Shown here in pieces: positions 12,185-19,667 of a stretch of DNA of 64,000 nucleotides. The first letter of the stretch is position 1, and the number at the start of each line of letters is the position of its first letter. The stretch spans positions 1,257,262 through 1,321,261 of the forward strand of contig JAEPQE010000001.1 in the NCBI GenBank assembly GCA_017640665.1, given 5' to 3'. The notes under the pieces are model-generated. The model was not told the origin of the DNA, made no database searches, and saw only the letters and a list, made by a program, of their open reading frames with translations. Origin of the DNA: Balneolaceae bacterium (GTDB lineage: Bacteria; Bacteroidota; Rhodothermia; Balneolales; Balneolaceae). Both the position numbers and the translations under genes were made by a program.

Positions 12185-12886
12185 ATGAATCATAAGCATA
12201 CTCTTTTGTTGGTGGAAGACGAGATCGAATCCGGCGAAATGCTGGCTAATTTTCTGGAGCTCAATGATTATAAAGTTTATTGGGCGAAGGACGGTAAAGA
12301 AGCCTATAGATATATTGATGATCATGCCAATGAATTGGAACTTGCCATTCTTGATATCATGGTTCCGTATCACGACGGGAAGGAGATTTGTACCCATATT
12401 CGTCAGCATCCTGTAGTAAATGAAATTCCTGTTCTTTTTTTAACAGCCAGGGATGAAGAAAAGGATGAGATTGAAGGTTTGGAGCTTGGTGGCGATGACT
12501 ACATCAAAAAACCCGCAAGCCTGAATTTGATTAAAGCACACGTGGAAAGTCAACTACGCAGACAAAACCCCGAGAAGAGTAACTGGTTGCAATACGATCA
12601 TGTATATTTAGACGTAGACACCAAAGAGATGTATATCCATGAAGAAAAGATTGATCTGACGCATACTGAATACATCATTGCGGAGTTATTTTTCCAACAC
12701 CCAAAGCTGGTATATAGTCGGCATGAAATCCTGGAACATATCACCGACGAAGAGAAATATATCTTTGACAGAACAGTAGATGTTCACATCAAAAATCTGC
12801 GCATAAAAATGAAAGATGAGGGGAAGCTTATTAAAACCTATCGCGGTGTTGGGTACGGTTTCAATCGAGATTATTTGACTAGATGA
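12185..12886 (+). CDS. OmpR/PhoB-family response regulator
   Basis: The protein has 233 residues. The receiver domain has Glu11/Asp12, phospho-acceptor Asp57 (LAILDIMVPY), Thr87 and Lys109 (YIKKP). A winged-helix DNA-binding domain covers about 135-230 (DLTHTEYIIAELFFQHPKLVYSRHEILEHI, then the recognition helix DRTVDVHIKNLRIKM and wing KTYRGVGYGF). It overlaps the kinase start by 4 nt (ATGA). OmpR-type regulators bind direct repeats of about 11-bp period; a matching site lies upstream of the heme receptor at 19272, but there is no direct evidence that this regulator binds it. Confidence 0.93.
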   Translation: MNHKHTLLLVEDEIESGEMLANFLELNDYKVYWAKDGKEAYRYIDDHANELELAILDIMVPYHDGKEICTHIRQHPVVNEIPVLFLTARDEEKDEIEGLELGGDDYIKKPASLNLIKAHVESQLRRQNPEKSNWLQYDHVYLDVDTKEMYIHEEKIDLTHTEYIIAELFFQHPKLVYSRHEILEHITDEEKYIFDRTVDVHIKNLRIKMKDEGKLIKTYRGVGYGFNRDYLTR

Positions 12887-14289
12887 ATATTCAGGCTAAA
12901 CTGGCATTTGTATACATCACATTGCTATCTATAGGAGTGGTTGTAATTAGCTCGTATGCCATACTTAGTATTAGATCTTTTTTACTAGATGAAGCCATCC
13001 AGAAATTTGAGAATGATGCCCGCACGTTTGCCCAGTCTTTCGAAGAAACTACCACCAACGAAGAGCTTTTAAAGAAGACTTCCTTTGTTTCTGAACTTAC
13101 CGGATATAATGTGGCTTTATTTGATTCAATTGGTAACGTATTAGTTTCTACGCCCTTTCAGGATTCAGAGCTGGCCAATTCCAGAGAGTTTTTAAATGAT
13201 GCACTACAAAATCAACTTGATGGATCTGAAAATCAGGTGATTATAAATGAAGAAGCGCTGGATAAATTGATTTCATTTCGTCGGATTGGCGACAATGGTT
13301 CGGATGCTCAGTATCTCAGAATCAGTCAATATAAAAATGATTTGTATGCTGCAGAGGCGAGTATTCGTCATCTGATTTACGGAGCAATGATAGGGTCTAT
13401 TTTAGTAGTTGTGATCGTGAGTTTTTTCTTTGCCCGATATCTGGCCAGACCCATTAAGCAATTAAATGAAGCAGCTCTGGAAATAGCTGACGGTAATTTA
13501 GACAAAGAACTGAATGTAAATCGTAATGATGAGTTTGGAATGCTTGCAGAATCTTTGAACAAAATGGCAGGCACATTAAAAGCCGATAACGACCAACTCA
13601 AGAAACTCAATGAAAAGCAGAATCAGTTTTTCGCGGATATTACCCATGAAGTTCGCAATCCACTCCATACTATTTCGGGAGCTTTGGAGATGATTCAGGT
13701 TCCGAATCTGGATAATGAGAAGAAATCACAATATATGGCTACAGCTCAAAAGCAGGTAGAACGTGTGGTTCGTTTGTTTGAGGATATTAAATCACTTCAA
13801 CGCTATGATTACGATGAAAGTTTTATAAGAAAATCTGAGTTTGAAATAGGGATTCTCCTTCAAGAAGTAGTGGGTACTTATACTCCGATTGCAGCCGAAA
13901 AAGAACTAACATTTCAGTTGGATATTGAATCGAAGGTTTTCGTTAAAGCCGATCGGGATAAGATTGAACAGGTGCTGGATAATCTGATCTCAAATGCGGT
14001 TAAGTACACCAATGAAGGAAATATTCTGGTTGGGTGTGTTAGTAAGAGTAGTGAAGCGGAAATTTCGATTTCGGATTCCGGTATCGGGATTGGTAAGGTT
14101 CATTTAGAGCGACTATTTGATCGTTTTTATAGAACAGACAAAGCCCGATCAAGAGATAAGGGAGGGACAGGCCTGGGATTATCCGTAGTCAAAGGAATTC
14201 TCAGCGCGCATAAAAAAGATATTTATGTTGAGAGCGAGGTTGAAAAAGGCTCACGTTTCTACTTTTACCTGGATGTAGTAACCCGCTAA
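12883..14289 (+). CDS. Membrane sensor histidine kinase with HAMP domain
   Basis: The protein has 468 residues. One transmembrane helix at about 8-30 and another at about 165-185 flank a periplasmic sensor of about 130 residues. HAMP follows at about 186-240, then HisKA with phospho-acceptor His255 (DITHEVRNPLHTISG), the N box (DNLISNAVKYTNEG), G1 (ISDSGIGIG), F (LFDRFYRTDKAR) and G2 (GTGLGLSVVKG). It is translationally coupled to the OmpR-type regulator and converges with the aquaporin gene with a 4-nt end overlap. The signal it senses is unknown. Confidence 0.93.
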   Translation: MNIQAKLAFVYITLLSIGVVVISSYAILSIRSFLLDEAIQKFENDARTFAQSFEETTTNEELLKKTSFVSELTGYNVALFDSIGNVLVSTPFQDSELANSREFLNDALQNQLDGSENQVIINEEALDKLISFRRIGDNGSDAQYLRISQYKNDLYAAEASIRHLIYGAMIGSILVVVIVSFFFARYLARPIKQLNEAALEIADGNLDKELNVNRNDEFGMLAESLNKMAGTLKADNDQLKKLNEKQNQFFADITHEVRNPLHTISGALEMIQVPNLDNEKKSQYMATAQKQVERVVRLFEDIKSLQRYDYDESFIRKSEFEIGILLQEVVGTYTPIAAEKELTFQLDIESKVFVKADRDKIEQVLDNLISNAVKYTNEGNILVGCVSKSSEAEISISDSGIGIGKVHLERLFDRFYRTDKARSRDKGGTGLGLSVVKGILSAHKKDIYVESEVEKGSRFYFYLDVVTR

Positions 14290-15401: not shown

Positions 15402-15741
15402 GCTCCTCTTTTTTCTTTTTGGTGAGACTTTCTACAATGAGCTCATACGAATGGGTAATTAATTCCTGAATCATTTCGTCATCGAGCATCCCATCAGGAT
15501 ATACCGAATTCCAGTGGGCCTTATTCATGTGCCAGCCCGGCTTTATTTCTTCATGCTGTTCTCTAAGGATTACGGCGCGGTCAGGATCACACTTTAAGTT
15601 GATGAATTCAAAATCATCAACTCCGGTAATTGCGAATATTTTGCCCATTACTTTATACACCAGAGTATCATCACCAAAAGGTAAGCCTTCAGTAACACCG
15701 GGAAAGGAAAGGCAATAATCACGGAACTCTTCGATATTCAT
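15385..15741 (-). CDS. MmcQ/YjbR family protein
   Basis: This 118-residue cytoplasmic protein matches the YjbR/CyaY-like fold: FRDYCLSFPGVTEGLPFGDDTLVYKVMGKIFA at the start, then INLKCDPDRAVILREQ and WNSVYPDGMLDDEMIQELITHSYELIV. Family members are described as having a double-wing DNA-binding-like motif, but the function is not established. Its ATG overlaps the upstream gene stop by one base (TAATG), so it is co-translated with the secreted protein at 15741-16238. Confidence 0.88.
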   Translation of the reverse strand: MNIEEFRDYCLSFPGVTEGLPFGDDTLVYKVMGKIFAITGVDDFEFINLKCDPDRAVILREQHEEIKPGWHMNKAHWNSVYPDGMLDDEMIQELITHSYELIVESLTKKKKEELKALK

Positions 15742-16238
15742 TAATTAACCTCTTCGAATTCGTCTTTAAATAAATTAGTAGCATTCACAGCTTCAGCTGC
15801 AATTATATGCATCATATTTTCTGAAACCACTCCAACCTGTCCTTTATTCCAGGTAGATGCCATTGTCTGCAAGTCTCTGTTCAACACCAGTTTCACAGGT
15901 TGGTAAAAGTTCATTTCGATAGAAAAAGGATAGGTTTGATTGGAAGCACGCATAATATTTATGTGCACATGAAGAATAGGAAATTCATCCGATTGTCGTA
16001 GTGTTCGATCACTTAGGATGGTGAGAGGTAAGCCTTCAAAATTTTCTATGATGGCTTTTCGGATTAGACCAGTATTTAGAGATTCGTGACTCAATCCTAT
16101 GGACTTTTCTACATTTACTACAATACCAAGTTCCTGAAGCCCTCTTAGCGATGCTCGTTCTCTCGCAATTTCGTTTTGGGCGTAGCTGGCTTGATAAGTA
16201 AAAATCCCAATCAAACACAGAAAAACTACTTTTTTCAT
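15741..16238 (-). CDS. Secreted hypothetical protein
   Basis: The protein has 165 residues with a signal peptide (MKKVVFLCLIGIFTYQASYAQ). The mature part reads as one alpha/beta domain (LRGLQELGIVVNVEKSIG, then FPILHVHINIMRAS, YPFSIEMNFYQPVKLVLN). No lipobox, catalytic motif or known family is recognised. It is probably periplasmic, and it is transcribed with the yjbR-like gene. Confidence 0.7.
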   Translation of the reverse strand: MKKVVFLCLIGIFTYQASYAQNEIARERASLRGLQELGIVVNVEKSIGLSHESLNTGLIRKAIIENFEGLPLTILSDRTLRQSDEFPILHVHINIMRASNQTYPFSIEMNFYQPVKLVLNRDLQTMASTWNKGQVGVVSENMMHIIAAEAVNATNLFKDEFEEVN

Positions 16239-16971: not shown

Positions 16972-19272
16972 TTAGAATTCAAATAAAATTTTTGTGAAAA
17001 ACGAGATCCCGGGCTGAAATCTTAAAAACTCAGGATTCGTGTAGTTGAATACATTATTTACGCCGGCCTGAGCTCGAATTTTGGTTGTAAACTGTTTTGA
17101 TAAAGAGAAATTCCAGATGCTGTATGGGTCGGTAAACTCATTACTATCAGCACGTCTGTTCGCATTGCTATCGTTAAAGAAATATTTACTTTTAAGTACT
17201 CCACGTATAGAAATCTGAGTATCAAAAAATGGTTCTTCGTAGAATAGCTTTATCGAACCGGAATGCTTCGGACGCTTTGTGAGTGGGATTTCATATTCTA
17301 CATCTTTGGTAACAACCTGGCCATTTTCAATTACCGTTCTGGATTCTTGAGCAATTTGGATGGCATCGAGATATTGATAACCCAGTGAAATTTGCAGATC
17401 ATTAGTAACAAAGTAATTTAGATCAGATTCAATGCCCTGAGTCTGTGCCTTATTAATATTTACATACCCGAAAATGGTATTGTTATTAGTGAGCTCAGCA
17501 ATTTCTATTGCTTCGATCAGATTCTGAGCATTATTTCTGAAAAAGTTGATGTTACTCGTTAATCTGGAATCTGAGGTCTTGATTAAAAAACCGGCATTAT
17601 ATGCAGTGGAATACTCAGGGTCTAAATCAGTGCTTAAATCAGGATTGATAAAGTATTGTCGGACTAAGCCTTGATTTTCAAAGGAAGTTAATTGAGCCCC
17701 AATATTTTTCACTCCATAAATAAGGTATCCACTTCCCGCATTATCAAAATCGAGATATAACGTTCTGAAATCCGGAGCTTTGAATCCGTTACCCGCGGAT
17801 GCCTTAAAAGCCAGATTTTCAAAAATCTCATACCTTAGCGAAAGCTTTGGGCTCAAATAAGAAGTATAGGAGGAGTGATTGTCGAGACGAGCGCCGGCTA
17901 CTATGTTCAGCTTTTCACCAACAAGAAACTGATGTTGGGCAAAGAGAAAAAGGCCTTCCTGATTTCGCCGACCCTGATAACGTTCGGCATCAACGAACTC
18001 TTTAGTAAAGCCAGTGCCAAAGGTAGAAATATGATTATTAGCCCAAGAGTAATTATTCTGGACTTCTATCTTGTTAAACCCCTGTTGGTTGTTGTTGGTA
18101 ACATTCTCAAAGTTAGAGTCTTCAAAAACGGTTTCAGAATAGTCTTCATATAACGTAGAATAAAGATTTACAGAGGTTTGAAACCTGGAGAAAGGTGAAG
18201 AGTCAAGCTGTAGTTGAAAAGACAAGTCATCCTGCCAACCTTCTTCTCCAACGCCAAGTTGTTGTCCTTGTACAGAGGCGATAGTTAGACCGGAGAAATT
18301 ATTTTTGTAGTACCGACTGGAAGCACTAAGTGATGTCAGATCAGAAAACTCGTATTTAAGTGAAGAATTAATCGTGAAATTATCATACGGATTTTGATTC
18401 TGCCCAAACTCCTCTTTATCCAGATCAAAGCCATCACTTCCGTCTATCACAAAACCAGCAGTACCGGAAAGCTTATTTTTGTTAAAAGAAATGGTTGCTC
18501 CACCGTTGTAACTTGCCCGGGAACCATATTGTGTAAACGCATTTCCCGAAATAGCTTCATTTGGTTTTTTTGTGATAATATTAATCACACCAGCCAGTGC
18601 ATCACTACCCCATAACGCTGATGATGGACCTTTTACAATTTCAATTTGCTGGATATTTGAAGTATTGATGCGACTTATATCCATCGCGCCGCGAACACGG
18701 CCAACCAGAGGTTGGCCATCAATGAGTATAAGCGTGTAATCCGATTCAAAACCTTGTACCTGAATGGCATTCCCTTCATTAGGAGAGAGAGAAATCCCTG
18801 CCTGCTCAAGCAAAATATCTTTTAGATTTGTGGATCCTGAATACTGGATTTCATCTTCGGAGATCACATCTACAGCAATAGAAACATCTTCAATATCCTG
18901 AACGGTACGCGTTGCGGTAACAACCGCAGAACCGGATTCATAAATAATCTCTTCTAAGATTATTTCTATAAATGCATTCTTGTCTTCTTCAATTTCAATC
19001 ATTTTTGAAGCGGACTTAAATCCAACCCGGCTTACTTTTATCGTATACTCACCAGGAGGGAGTGAAGGAATTTGGAAAGAGCCATCCGAATTAGAAACAG
19101 CCCATTTTGAAGCACTGAGATAAATATTTGCTTCAGCAACAGACTCTCCTGTAGCAGATAAAATCTGCCCACTAAGGGAAGAAGTTGATTGTGCTTTCAC
19201 ACTCAAACTGACAGCAAAAAAAATACTTCCCAGAAGGAAGTGTTTTAATAAGTACACGCAGGTAAAACTCAC
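16972..19272 (-). CDS. TonB-dependent outer-membrane receptor, probable heme receptor
   Basis: The protein has 766 residues with a signal peptide ending SVKAQ. Residues about 29-110 form a carboxypeptidase-regulatory-like beta domain (LSGQILSATGESVAEANIYL). A plug domain (about 120-235) carries SGSTNLKDILLEQAGISLSPNEGNAIQ, LILIDGQPLVGRVRGAMDISRI and IEIVKGPSSALWGSDALAGVINIITKKP. A 22-strand barrel follows, with KASAGNGFKAPDFRTLYL and a terminal Phe (FFTKILFEF). Together with the HmuY-like lipoprotein 18 nt downstream it probably imports heme. Paired 11-bp-period repeats lie just upstream. Confidence 0.92.
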   Translation of the reverse strand: MSFTCVYLLKHFLLGSIFFAVSLSVKAQSTSSLSGQILSATGESVAEANIYLSASKWAVSNSDGSFQIPSLPPGEYTIKVSRVGFKSASKMIEIEEDKNAFIEIILEEIIYESGSAVVTATRTVQDIEDVSIAVDVISEDEIQYSGSTNLKDILLEQAGISLSPNEGNAIQVQGFESDYTLILIDGQPLVGRVRGAMDISRINTSNIQQIEIVKGPSSALWGSDALAGVINIITKKPNEAISGNAFTQYGSRASYNGGATISFNKNKLSGTAGFVIDGSDGFDLDKEEFGQNQNPYDNFTINSSLKYEFSDLTSLSASSRYYKNNFSGLTIASVQGQQLGVGEEGWQDDLSFQLQLDSSPFSRFQTSVNLYSTLYEDYSETVFEDSNFENVTNNNQQGFNKIEVQNNYSWANNHISTFGTGFTKEFVDAERYQGRRNQEGLFLFAQHQFLVGEKLNIVAGARLDNHSSYTSYLSPKLSLRYEIFENLAFKASAGNGFKAPDFRTLYLDFDNAGSGYLIYGVKNIGAQLTSFENQGLVRQYFINPDLSTDLDPEYSTAYNAGFLIKTSDSRLTSNINFFRNNAQNLIEAIEIAELTNNNTIFGYVNINKAQTQGIESDLNYFVTNDLQISLGYQYLDAIQIAQESRTVIENGQVVTKDVEYEIPLTKRPKHSGSIKLFYEEPFFDTQISIRGVLKSKYFFNDSNANRRADSNEFTDPYSIWNFSLSKQFTTKIRAQAGVNNVFNYTNPEFLRFQPGISFFTKILFEF

Positions 19273-19304
19273 ATTGTTTAGATTCGGTCCAAATAAACGA
19301 GAGT

Positions 19305-19378
19305 TTTATGAAGATTTTGTGAAGAAGAGCGAACTACACCTATTAACAGTAAAAAAGATTTATGAATAGTTTGTGAAG
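19305..19378. promoter_or_regulatory. Two 20-bp direct repeats, each a tandem TTTRTGAA pair with 11-bp period
   Basis: Copies at 19305-19324 and 19359-19378 match at 18 of 20 positions. Each reads TTTATGAA-N3-TTTGTGAA, so each contains two octamers spaced 11 bp, and the two copies are 54 bp apart (about five helical turns). They lie 33-106 bp upstream of the TonB receptor ATG (19272, minus strand). Tandem 11-bp spacing is the classical layout for OmpR/PhoB-type regulators. The binding protein is unknown. Confidence 0.6.
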
Positions 19379-19385
19379 ATAGGTG

Positions 19386-19667
19386 TTACTCCGTCACTTC
19401 AACACCTTTCCAAAAAGCAACATGGTCTTTTATTTGCTTAGCAGCGTCTTTTGGTTCCGGATAGTACCACGCCGCATTTTGATTAGTTCGCCCATCTACG
19501 TTAATAGAATAATAACTGGCTAAACCTTTCCATGGGCAAGTGGTATGATGGTCTGATTCCACAAAAAAGTCTCTATTGATTGAGTCAGCCGGAAAATAAT
19601 GATTGTTCTCGACAACCTCAGTGTGGTCGCTTTCGGCAAGTACTTTACCATTCCAGATTGCTTTCAT
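19386..19667 (-). CDS. DUF427 domain protein
   Basis: This 93-residue cytoplasmic protein matches the DUF427 family over its full length: KAIWNGKVLAESDHTEVVENNHYFP, then HHTTCPWKGLASYYSINVDG and NAAWYYPEPKDAAKQIKDHVAFW. Cys and several His residues are conserved in the family; no enzymatic role is established. It starts 17 nt after the lipoprotein stop, in an operon with DUF423. Confidence 0.9.
   Translation of the reverse strand: MKAIWNGKVLAESDHTEVVENNHYFPADSINRDFFVESDHHTTCPWKGLASYYSINVDGRTNQNAAWYYPEPKDAAKQIKDHVAFWKGVEVTE

Follow-up and report, generated by a model that had tools for sequence, protein, structure and literature searches.

The paired direct repeats upstream of the heme receptor gene hmuR in the window, i.e. 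the whole 64,000-nucleotide stretch of Balneolaceae DNA analysed here, are probably operator sites of a heme-homeostasis two-component system (TCS) that controls hmuRY. The TCS consists of the response regulator (RR) at 12185-12886 and the sensor histidine kinase (HK) at 12883-14289. The reading is based on conservation of the repeats upstream of orthologous receptors, on their recurrence at heme and respiration genes with a fixed spacing to the promoter, and on the linkage of orthologous regulators to box-bearing hem genes.

Paired repeats upstream of hmuRY

The two copies, at 19305-19324 and 19359-19378, are identical at 18 of 20 positions and spaced 54 bp apart, and each consists of two TTTRTGAA octamers with an internal period of 11 bp. 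All of these features, as given in the initial annotation, were confirmed in the sequence. Its label of a heme receptor also holds, since the gene of the TonB-dependent receptor is followed directly by that of HmuY (PF14064). Read on the minus strand toward hmuR, the distal copy is TTCACAAACTATTCATAAA and the proximal copy is TTCACAAAATCTTCATAAA. Both have the form TTCAC-N6-TTCAT (GTGAA-type on the opposite strand), with the consensus half-site TTCAY. An operator of two head-to-tail half-sites about one helical turn apart, beside a promoter, fits the OmpR/PhoB class of regulators, and the earlier suggestion of such a class is the best reading of the repeats. The features of the locus are listed in Table 1.

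Table 1. Features of the hmuRY promoter region and of the neighboring two-component system in the window
Feature	Position	Strand	Remarks
Proximal box TTCACAAAATCTTCATAAA	19305..19323	-	Two half-sites, 11-bp period; 7 bp from its end to the -7-like element
Distal box TTCACAAACTATTCATAAA	19359..19377	-	54 bp upstream of the proximal box
Putative -7 promoter element TTTATTTG, TAnnTTTG type	19290..19297	-	Fixed spacing in the aligned sites
Imperfect Fur-family-like palindrome TTATTTGGACCGAATCTAAACAA	19274..19296	-	Overlaps the -7 element; 5 mismatches to TTATTTAGAATNATTCTAAATAA, promoter shuffles at least 7
hmuR, TonB-dependent heme-type receptor	16972..19272	-	Preceded by the boxes
hmuY, heme-binding lipoprotein family PF14064	16348..16953	-	Downstream of hmuR
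165-aa exported protein, no Pfam match	15741..16238	-	Syntenic member of the TCS block
OmpR/PhoB-family response regulator (RR), candidate box binder	12185..12886	+	Adjoins its HK
Sensor histidine kinase (HK), HAMP-HisKA-HATPase	12883..14289	+	Partner of the regulator at 12185

Comparison with relatives makes the GTG at 19257 the more likely start of hmuR. It is noted that an 8-bp perfect inverted repeat, ACACCTAT/ATAGGTGT at 19336-19343 and 19379-19386, flanks the distal box at the end of the DUF427 gene; it may be a terminator or serve as a structured spacer.

Gracilimonas, Balneola, Fodinibius and Rhodohalobacter are the nearest named relatives. The first two keep the block SDR-RR-HK-aquaporin-DUF6787-YjbR-165aa, within which hmuRY was not found in these two genera; in the window, hmuRY lies just past the 165-aa gene. 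The 165-aa exported protein accompanies the TCS in Gracilimonas and Balneola as well as in the window's genus, and its gene possibly belongs to the hmu transcription unit.

Conservation of the box upstream of hmuR

The hmuR receptor was detected in 33 of 92 Balneolaceae genomes, including the window's own (G000), and 30 loci were retained. Of these 30, 16 have an exact TTCAYAWW-N3-TTCAYAWW box no more than 300 bp upstream of the matched hmuR start, compared to 0 of 1500 shuffled hmuR promoters. The repeats are thus conserved upstream of orthologous receptors. By genus, the exact box was found in every sampled member of g1, g2, g6, g8 and g19, and at none of the 14 loci from g3, g4, g11, g16 and g21. 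G022 and G025, both of g4, carry the box at other genes but not at hmuR. The 54-bp pair recurs in G040 (before hmuR; before the small gene preceding hmuR) and in G036, and G032 has an exact pair with a spacing of 62 bp.

Genes carrying the box

In a genome scan with TTTRTGAA-N3-TTTGTGAA, as proposed in the initial annotation, the two window copies are the only exact matches in the 3.8-Mb genome, and with up to 3 mismatches there are 222 matches genome-wide vs 199 in the backward control, which is no enrichment. Being no commoner than its backward control, the literal pattern is too narrow to reveal the regulon. The generalised box, on the other hand, is found at heme and respiration genes. Eight genomes contain 40 exact sites of TTCAYAWW-N3-TTCAYAWW vs 5 for the backward control, with 6 vs 1 in the window's own genome. 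Summed by genus, g1, g2, g4, g5, g6, g8 and g19 together give 147 exact sites vs 11, and g3 gives 4 vs 4. The strict pattern is mildly enriched in g11 (25 vs 8 in the control over 28 genomes).

The downstream genes were read at 79 sites, a selection that was made before the genes were known, partly for good-looking sequence, and that covers all listed sites for G000, G039, G040, G033, G006 and G001. Most numerous are the sites at hmuR (17, one of which, in G025, precedes an 888-aa relative), azurin (13), the glutamyl-tRNA reductase HemA (7), the ferrochelatase HemH (5), a PD40 lipoprotein and YceI (4 each), followed by those at TonB and a cytochrome c (2 each) and at CydA and KatG (1 each). 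The assignments of HemH, azurin, TonB, YceI, PD40 and thioredoxin have Pfam support, and HemA, cytochrome c, CydA and KatG were named by eye from sequence. At some of the 79 sites the downstream gene has no obvious connection with heme, and no pst or pho genes were recognised among the downstream genes of the 79. The box marks a heme and respiration regulon that is not phosphate-related, and further copies of the repeat are indeed found near such genes.

Among the relatives with the corresponding form of hemA, the box upstream of this gene is exact in 7 of 8, with one deviation in the eighth. Upstream of hemH it is exact in 5 of 8, or 7 of 8 when copies one base off are counted, and the hemH of G022 is without a box. 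In the window's own genome, each of the 6 exact sites is followed at 17-87 bp by a gene on the same strand; the targets are hmuR (two sites), azurin, TonB, the PD40 lipoprotein and a membrane protein that has no Pfam match.

Several observations on individual targets should be mentioned. The best box of the window's own genome (C1:349830; L061:5831-9050) precedes genes for a PD40/TolB-like lipoprotein, a thioredoxin-like protein and a DUF6029 protein, and the PD40 lipoprotein gene carries the box in G032, G033 and G036 as well. The membrane protein, 237 aa long (L063:6181-6891) and without Pfam match, has the box in G000, G040 and G034 and is a candidate member of the heme regulon. Two HemA forms, 36-41% identical, split the family, one standing alone with the strict box and the other residing in an RR-HK-hemH-hemA cluster (L227-L247). 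The HemH forms diverge in the same way, and the split looks like gene replacement.

An independent profile and the promoter spacing

A profile, R1, was built by sequence only from 44 of the 79 sites, with no hmuR site and no site of the window's own genome among them. Sites more than 125 bp from a gene start, sites inside ORFs (except for four loci that were kept) and seven hand-picked doubtful loci were left out. The best match of R1 in the 64-kb window is the proximal copy (19290-19325; E 9.9e-7, 25.4 bits). The distal copy ranks second (E 5.6e-4, 16.9 bits), and the third match is at E 0.09. The genome-wide search with R1 covered 15 of the 30 genomes. In the window's own genome the first six matches are the PD40 lipoprotein (E 5.4e-5), the proximal copy at hmuR (5.9e-5), the membrane protein (2.7e-4), azurin (5.8e-4), TonB (1.8e-3) and the distal copy at hmuR (0.035).

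In the 69 sites that have a gene start no more than 125 bp away, conservation extends to positions not fixed by the search pattern. There is a C at -1 in 50 of the 69, and the ATC between the half-sites is kept in 52, 53 and 48 of them, respectively. Past a gap of seven columns, the alignment is conserved again at T26 (46), A27 (43), T30 (50), T31 (64) and G33 (30). We take columns 26-33 to be the TAnnTTTG -7 element of this bacterial group. With this element at a fixed distance, the box occupies the place of the -33 element. PhoB at E. coli promoters likewise sits in place of the upstream promoter element. At the same spacing after the distal box there are poor -7 elements: TACTGTTA in the window, TAGTATTA in G040 and TACCATTA in G036.

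The candidate regulator

Matches to PF00486 number 2-7 per genome in 14 genomes, and all 76 were placed in a tree. Orthologues of the regulator at 12185 were found in 30 of 30 genomes. Among the 13 prototrophs of g3, g7, g11 and g17, 12 have the RR at a distance of 2.8-4.1 kb from hemA, and hemH immediately precedes hemA; the thirteenth, G057, is split across broken contigs. The order RR-HK-hemH-hemA is seen in Fodinibius halophilus, F. salsisoli and Rhodohalobacter halophilus, and the HK of the window is 44-47% identical to the HKs of these Fodinibius and Rhodohalobacter clusters. A variant box, TTCA-N7-TTCAYA, is present at hemH in 16 of 16 RR-HK clusters, vs 0.0017 per shuffled promoter; this pattern was set after the sequences had been viewed, and R1 had flagged two of them blind. 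When R1 was applied to 194 kb of such hem-cluster loci, all 9 matches at E ≤ 0.1 were hemH promoters. Among PDB structures, PhoB is the best match to the DNA-binding domain of the 12185 regulator (helix FDRTVDVHIKNLR vs EDRTVDVHIRRLR). This PhoB-like domain and the orthologues in box-bearing hem clusters point to the regulator at 12185, already suggested for a binding test, as the best candidate for the protein that binds the box.

Binding by another OmpR-family regulator, e.g. that of the L117 group (G000 C1:180640), is unlikely. It is true that the L117 group and the group of the 12185 regulator are the only two OmpR-family groups common to both small box-bearing g19 genomes. However, in the genomes examined the coordinates of L117 do not place it near hmuR or hemA, whereas orthologues of the 12185 regulator are linked to hem genes or hmuR in many genera.

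The repeats could also be Pho boxes bound by the PhoB-type regulator (G000 C1:965233, L104 group), which would place heme uptake in the phosphate regulon. The half-site TTCAYAWW does resemble the E. coli Pho half-site GTCATAAA and has the same period, and a PhoB-like regulator with an RTVDVH helix exists. We consider this very unlikely because the targets described above are heme and respiration genes, R1 has no match at the scanned loci of the L104 group, and the hemH box adjoins genes of the 12185-type regulator and not of the PhoB type.

Further properties of the regulator family were considered. A change of the recognition helix between genera with and without the strict box, suspected from a long tree branch, was rejected: the helix FDRTVDVHxKNLR is constant across genera except for one I/V and one Y/F position. 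It is the box that differs between genera instead, as in the variants TTCAAATT and TTCACGAT. Autoregulation of the RR was rejected as well, as R1 gave 0 matches at E ≤ 0.05 at the regulator's own gene and other OmpR-family genes (44 RR loci), and none was seen by eye in 30 RR promoters. Most RR promoters of the Fodinibius type (g3) share a stretch around GTTCAGATACT...TATTTTA that is distinct from the box (L273-L280), and which may represent a separate control of the TCS. An apparent duplication of the regulator in G040 was discarded because the identical copies, 3,722,684 bp apart on a contig of 3,747,071 bp, reflect contig-end redundancy. About 24 kb at both ends of this contig (C1; L146, L147) appears redundant, through assembly overlap and not duplication. 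Beyond Balneolales, relatives of the RR are 31-41% identical (73 loci, L293-L365); no hem genes were found near these 73 loci, one of which has a weak hmuR-like match.

A Fur-like site over the same promoter

A palindrome within 5 mismatches of TTATTTAGAATNATTCTAAATAA is found in 24 of 30 hmuR promoters and is perfect in G022, although for one of the 24 (L019) a shuffled copy matched TTATTTAGAATNATTCTAAATAA equally well. The six g19 hmuR promoters lack it. Its 7-1-7 form points to a site for the Fur family. The initial annotation considered the layout unusual for a heme locus, where control by Fur or by extracytoplasmic sigma factors is more usual. Fur-type control is apparently overlaid and not replaced here, the palindrome overlapping the same promoter.

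That a Fur-family repressor alone controls the gene, with the direct repeats as a conserved promoter feature of no regulatory meaning, is most improbable. The frequency of the palindrome and the lack of the direct repeat in 14 of 30 hmuR promoters would agree with it, but the repeat is found at many other promoters with a fixed spacing to the -7 element, and the six g19 hmuR promoters keep the repeat while lacking the palindrome. Chance or local duplication is scarcely credible: the literal pattern does not exceed chance in the window when 3 mismatches are allowed, but the box is far more frequent in real than in shuffled promoters and the blind profile finds both copies.

Proposed mechanism

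We propose that operator control of hmuRY by the TCS works as follows. On each 11-bp direct repeat, the phosphorylated 12185 regulator would sit as a dimer in head-to-tail arrangement, in the fashion of PhoB. Activation of hmuRY would proceed from the proximal site, in the -33 place and separated from the -7 element by 7 bp, and the distal site would provide either a further dimer or another start. Iron control would come from a Fur-family repressor whose site overlaps the -7 element. The box is also found at hemA and hemH in related Balneolaceae, and in the window's lineage it would serve heme import. The boxes, their conservation and spacing, the content of the regulon, the lack of HemA, HemB and HemH hits and the gene linkage are observed. 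We infer binding by the 12185 regulator, activation, the Fur site and the signal; it is the geometry by itself that points to activation rather than repression.

Apparent loss of heme synthesis and linkage of hmuR to the regulator

The genes of heme synthesis were searched for in 30 genomes, hand-chosen from the 92 for the survey of heme genes and regulators, using a HemA query from G001 (E ≤ 1e-30), PF00490 for HemB and PF00762 for HemH. All three proteins are present in 21 of the 30 and jointly undetected in 9: G000, G039, G040, G003, G006, G032, G033, G036 and G084. G040 and G003 are single-contig assemblies. The loss in G084, which is 93% complete, may be an assembly gap, the three genes being close together in G082 of the same genus. 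The window's lineage appears to have lost heme synthesis.

All nine genomes without these genes have an hmuR with an exact box and the regulator 2.7-10.2 kb away. By comparison, hmuR is within 11 kb of the regulator in none of the 8 prototrophs with hmuR (G001, G022, G091, G009, G011, G012, G015 and G043), in four of which hmuR and the regulator are on different contigs. In the prototroph G082, HmuY and a box are found beside the TCS, with no hmuR at E ≤ 1e-60. Considering G082 and the box at hmuR in the prototroph G001, neither the linkage nor the box is confined to auxotrophs. G081, which has a box-bearing hemA, likewise carries the box at hmuR, so that the box follows the clade and not auxotrophy alone.

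One reading of this distribution, which we regard as evenly balanced between true and false, is that the regulon has been re-aimed: in Balneolaceae without HemA, HemB and HemH, the TCS of the hem cluster and its operator would survive beside hmuRY, having passed from the making of heme to its import. If the regulon has been re-aimed in auxotrophs, the sensor must read something other than the flux of internal heme precursors.

If operator control by the TCS is true, it predicts regulator, operator and target genes across a family of bacteria from marine and saline settings. It would also provide a natural experiment, in which one regulator and one box accompany heme synthesis in some genera and its loss in others, and what such a kinase senses would become directly testable.

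Comparison with known systems

No Balneolaceae heme regulon was found in the literature searched on heme regulation in Balneolaceae or Bacteroidetes. The proposed system resembles PhoB and the Pho box of E. coli in its best PDB match and in a head-to-tail 11-bp repeat that replaces the upstream promoter element. It differs in that the regulon concerns heme and respiration instead of phosphate, and in the half-site, which is TTCAYA here and TGTCA in the Pho box.

The regulator of HrrSA is of the NarL/LuxR type. HrrSA of Corynebacterium glutamicum is similar as a heme-responsive TCS that, according to the part of the source consulted, bears on terminal oxidase expression, but it belongs to Actinobacteria and has a different DNA site (PMC7337898). 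An OmpR-family regulator also acts at heme-receptor genes in Yersinia enterocolitica; in the portion of that report available to us it is the global osmoregulator OmpR, in contrast to the dedicated heme TCS proposed here (PMC6158557).

A dedicated heme TCS of the HemKR type has been described for Leptospira, as far as the excerpts used here go (PMC11426443, PMC2266917). In these excerpts, the OmpR/PhoB-like HemR binds the hem-box TGACA-N6-TGACA, and HemKR, which responds to 5-aminolevulinate, controls hemA, hmuO, exbB1/exbD1 and a TonB-linked transport gene (PMC11426443); in L. interrogans the HemKR pair is located between hemE and hemL (PMC2266917). Sensing of a precursor such as 5-aminolevulinate could not be the whole story in an auxotroph. 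Within what these sources cover, HemKR with its hem-box is the nearest known system, by likeness in its working and not by membership. Both have an OmpR/PhoB-type RR beside an HK and a direct repeat of 11-bp period (PMC11426443). Their targets are alike in that hemA (in relatives) and tonB are under the box here, compared with hemA, the TonB energizer and TonB-dependent transport in the Leptospira data seen. The TCS lies among hem genes in L. interrogans (PMC2266917) as in Fodinibius and Rhodohalobacter, which is not so in the window. Unlike in the Leptospira system as described there, the box is TTCAY-N6-TTCAY, the bacteria are of a different phylum, and azurin, cytochrome and katG genes are also under the box. 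The window's genome, moreover, is without detectable heme synthesis, and the target there is heme import.
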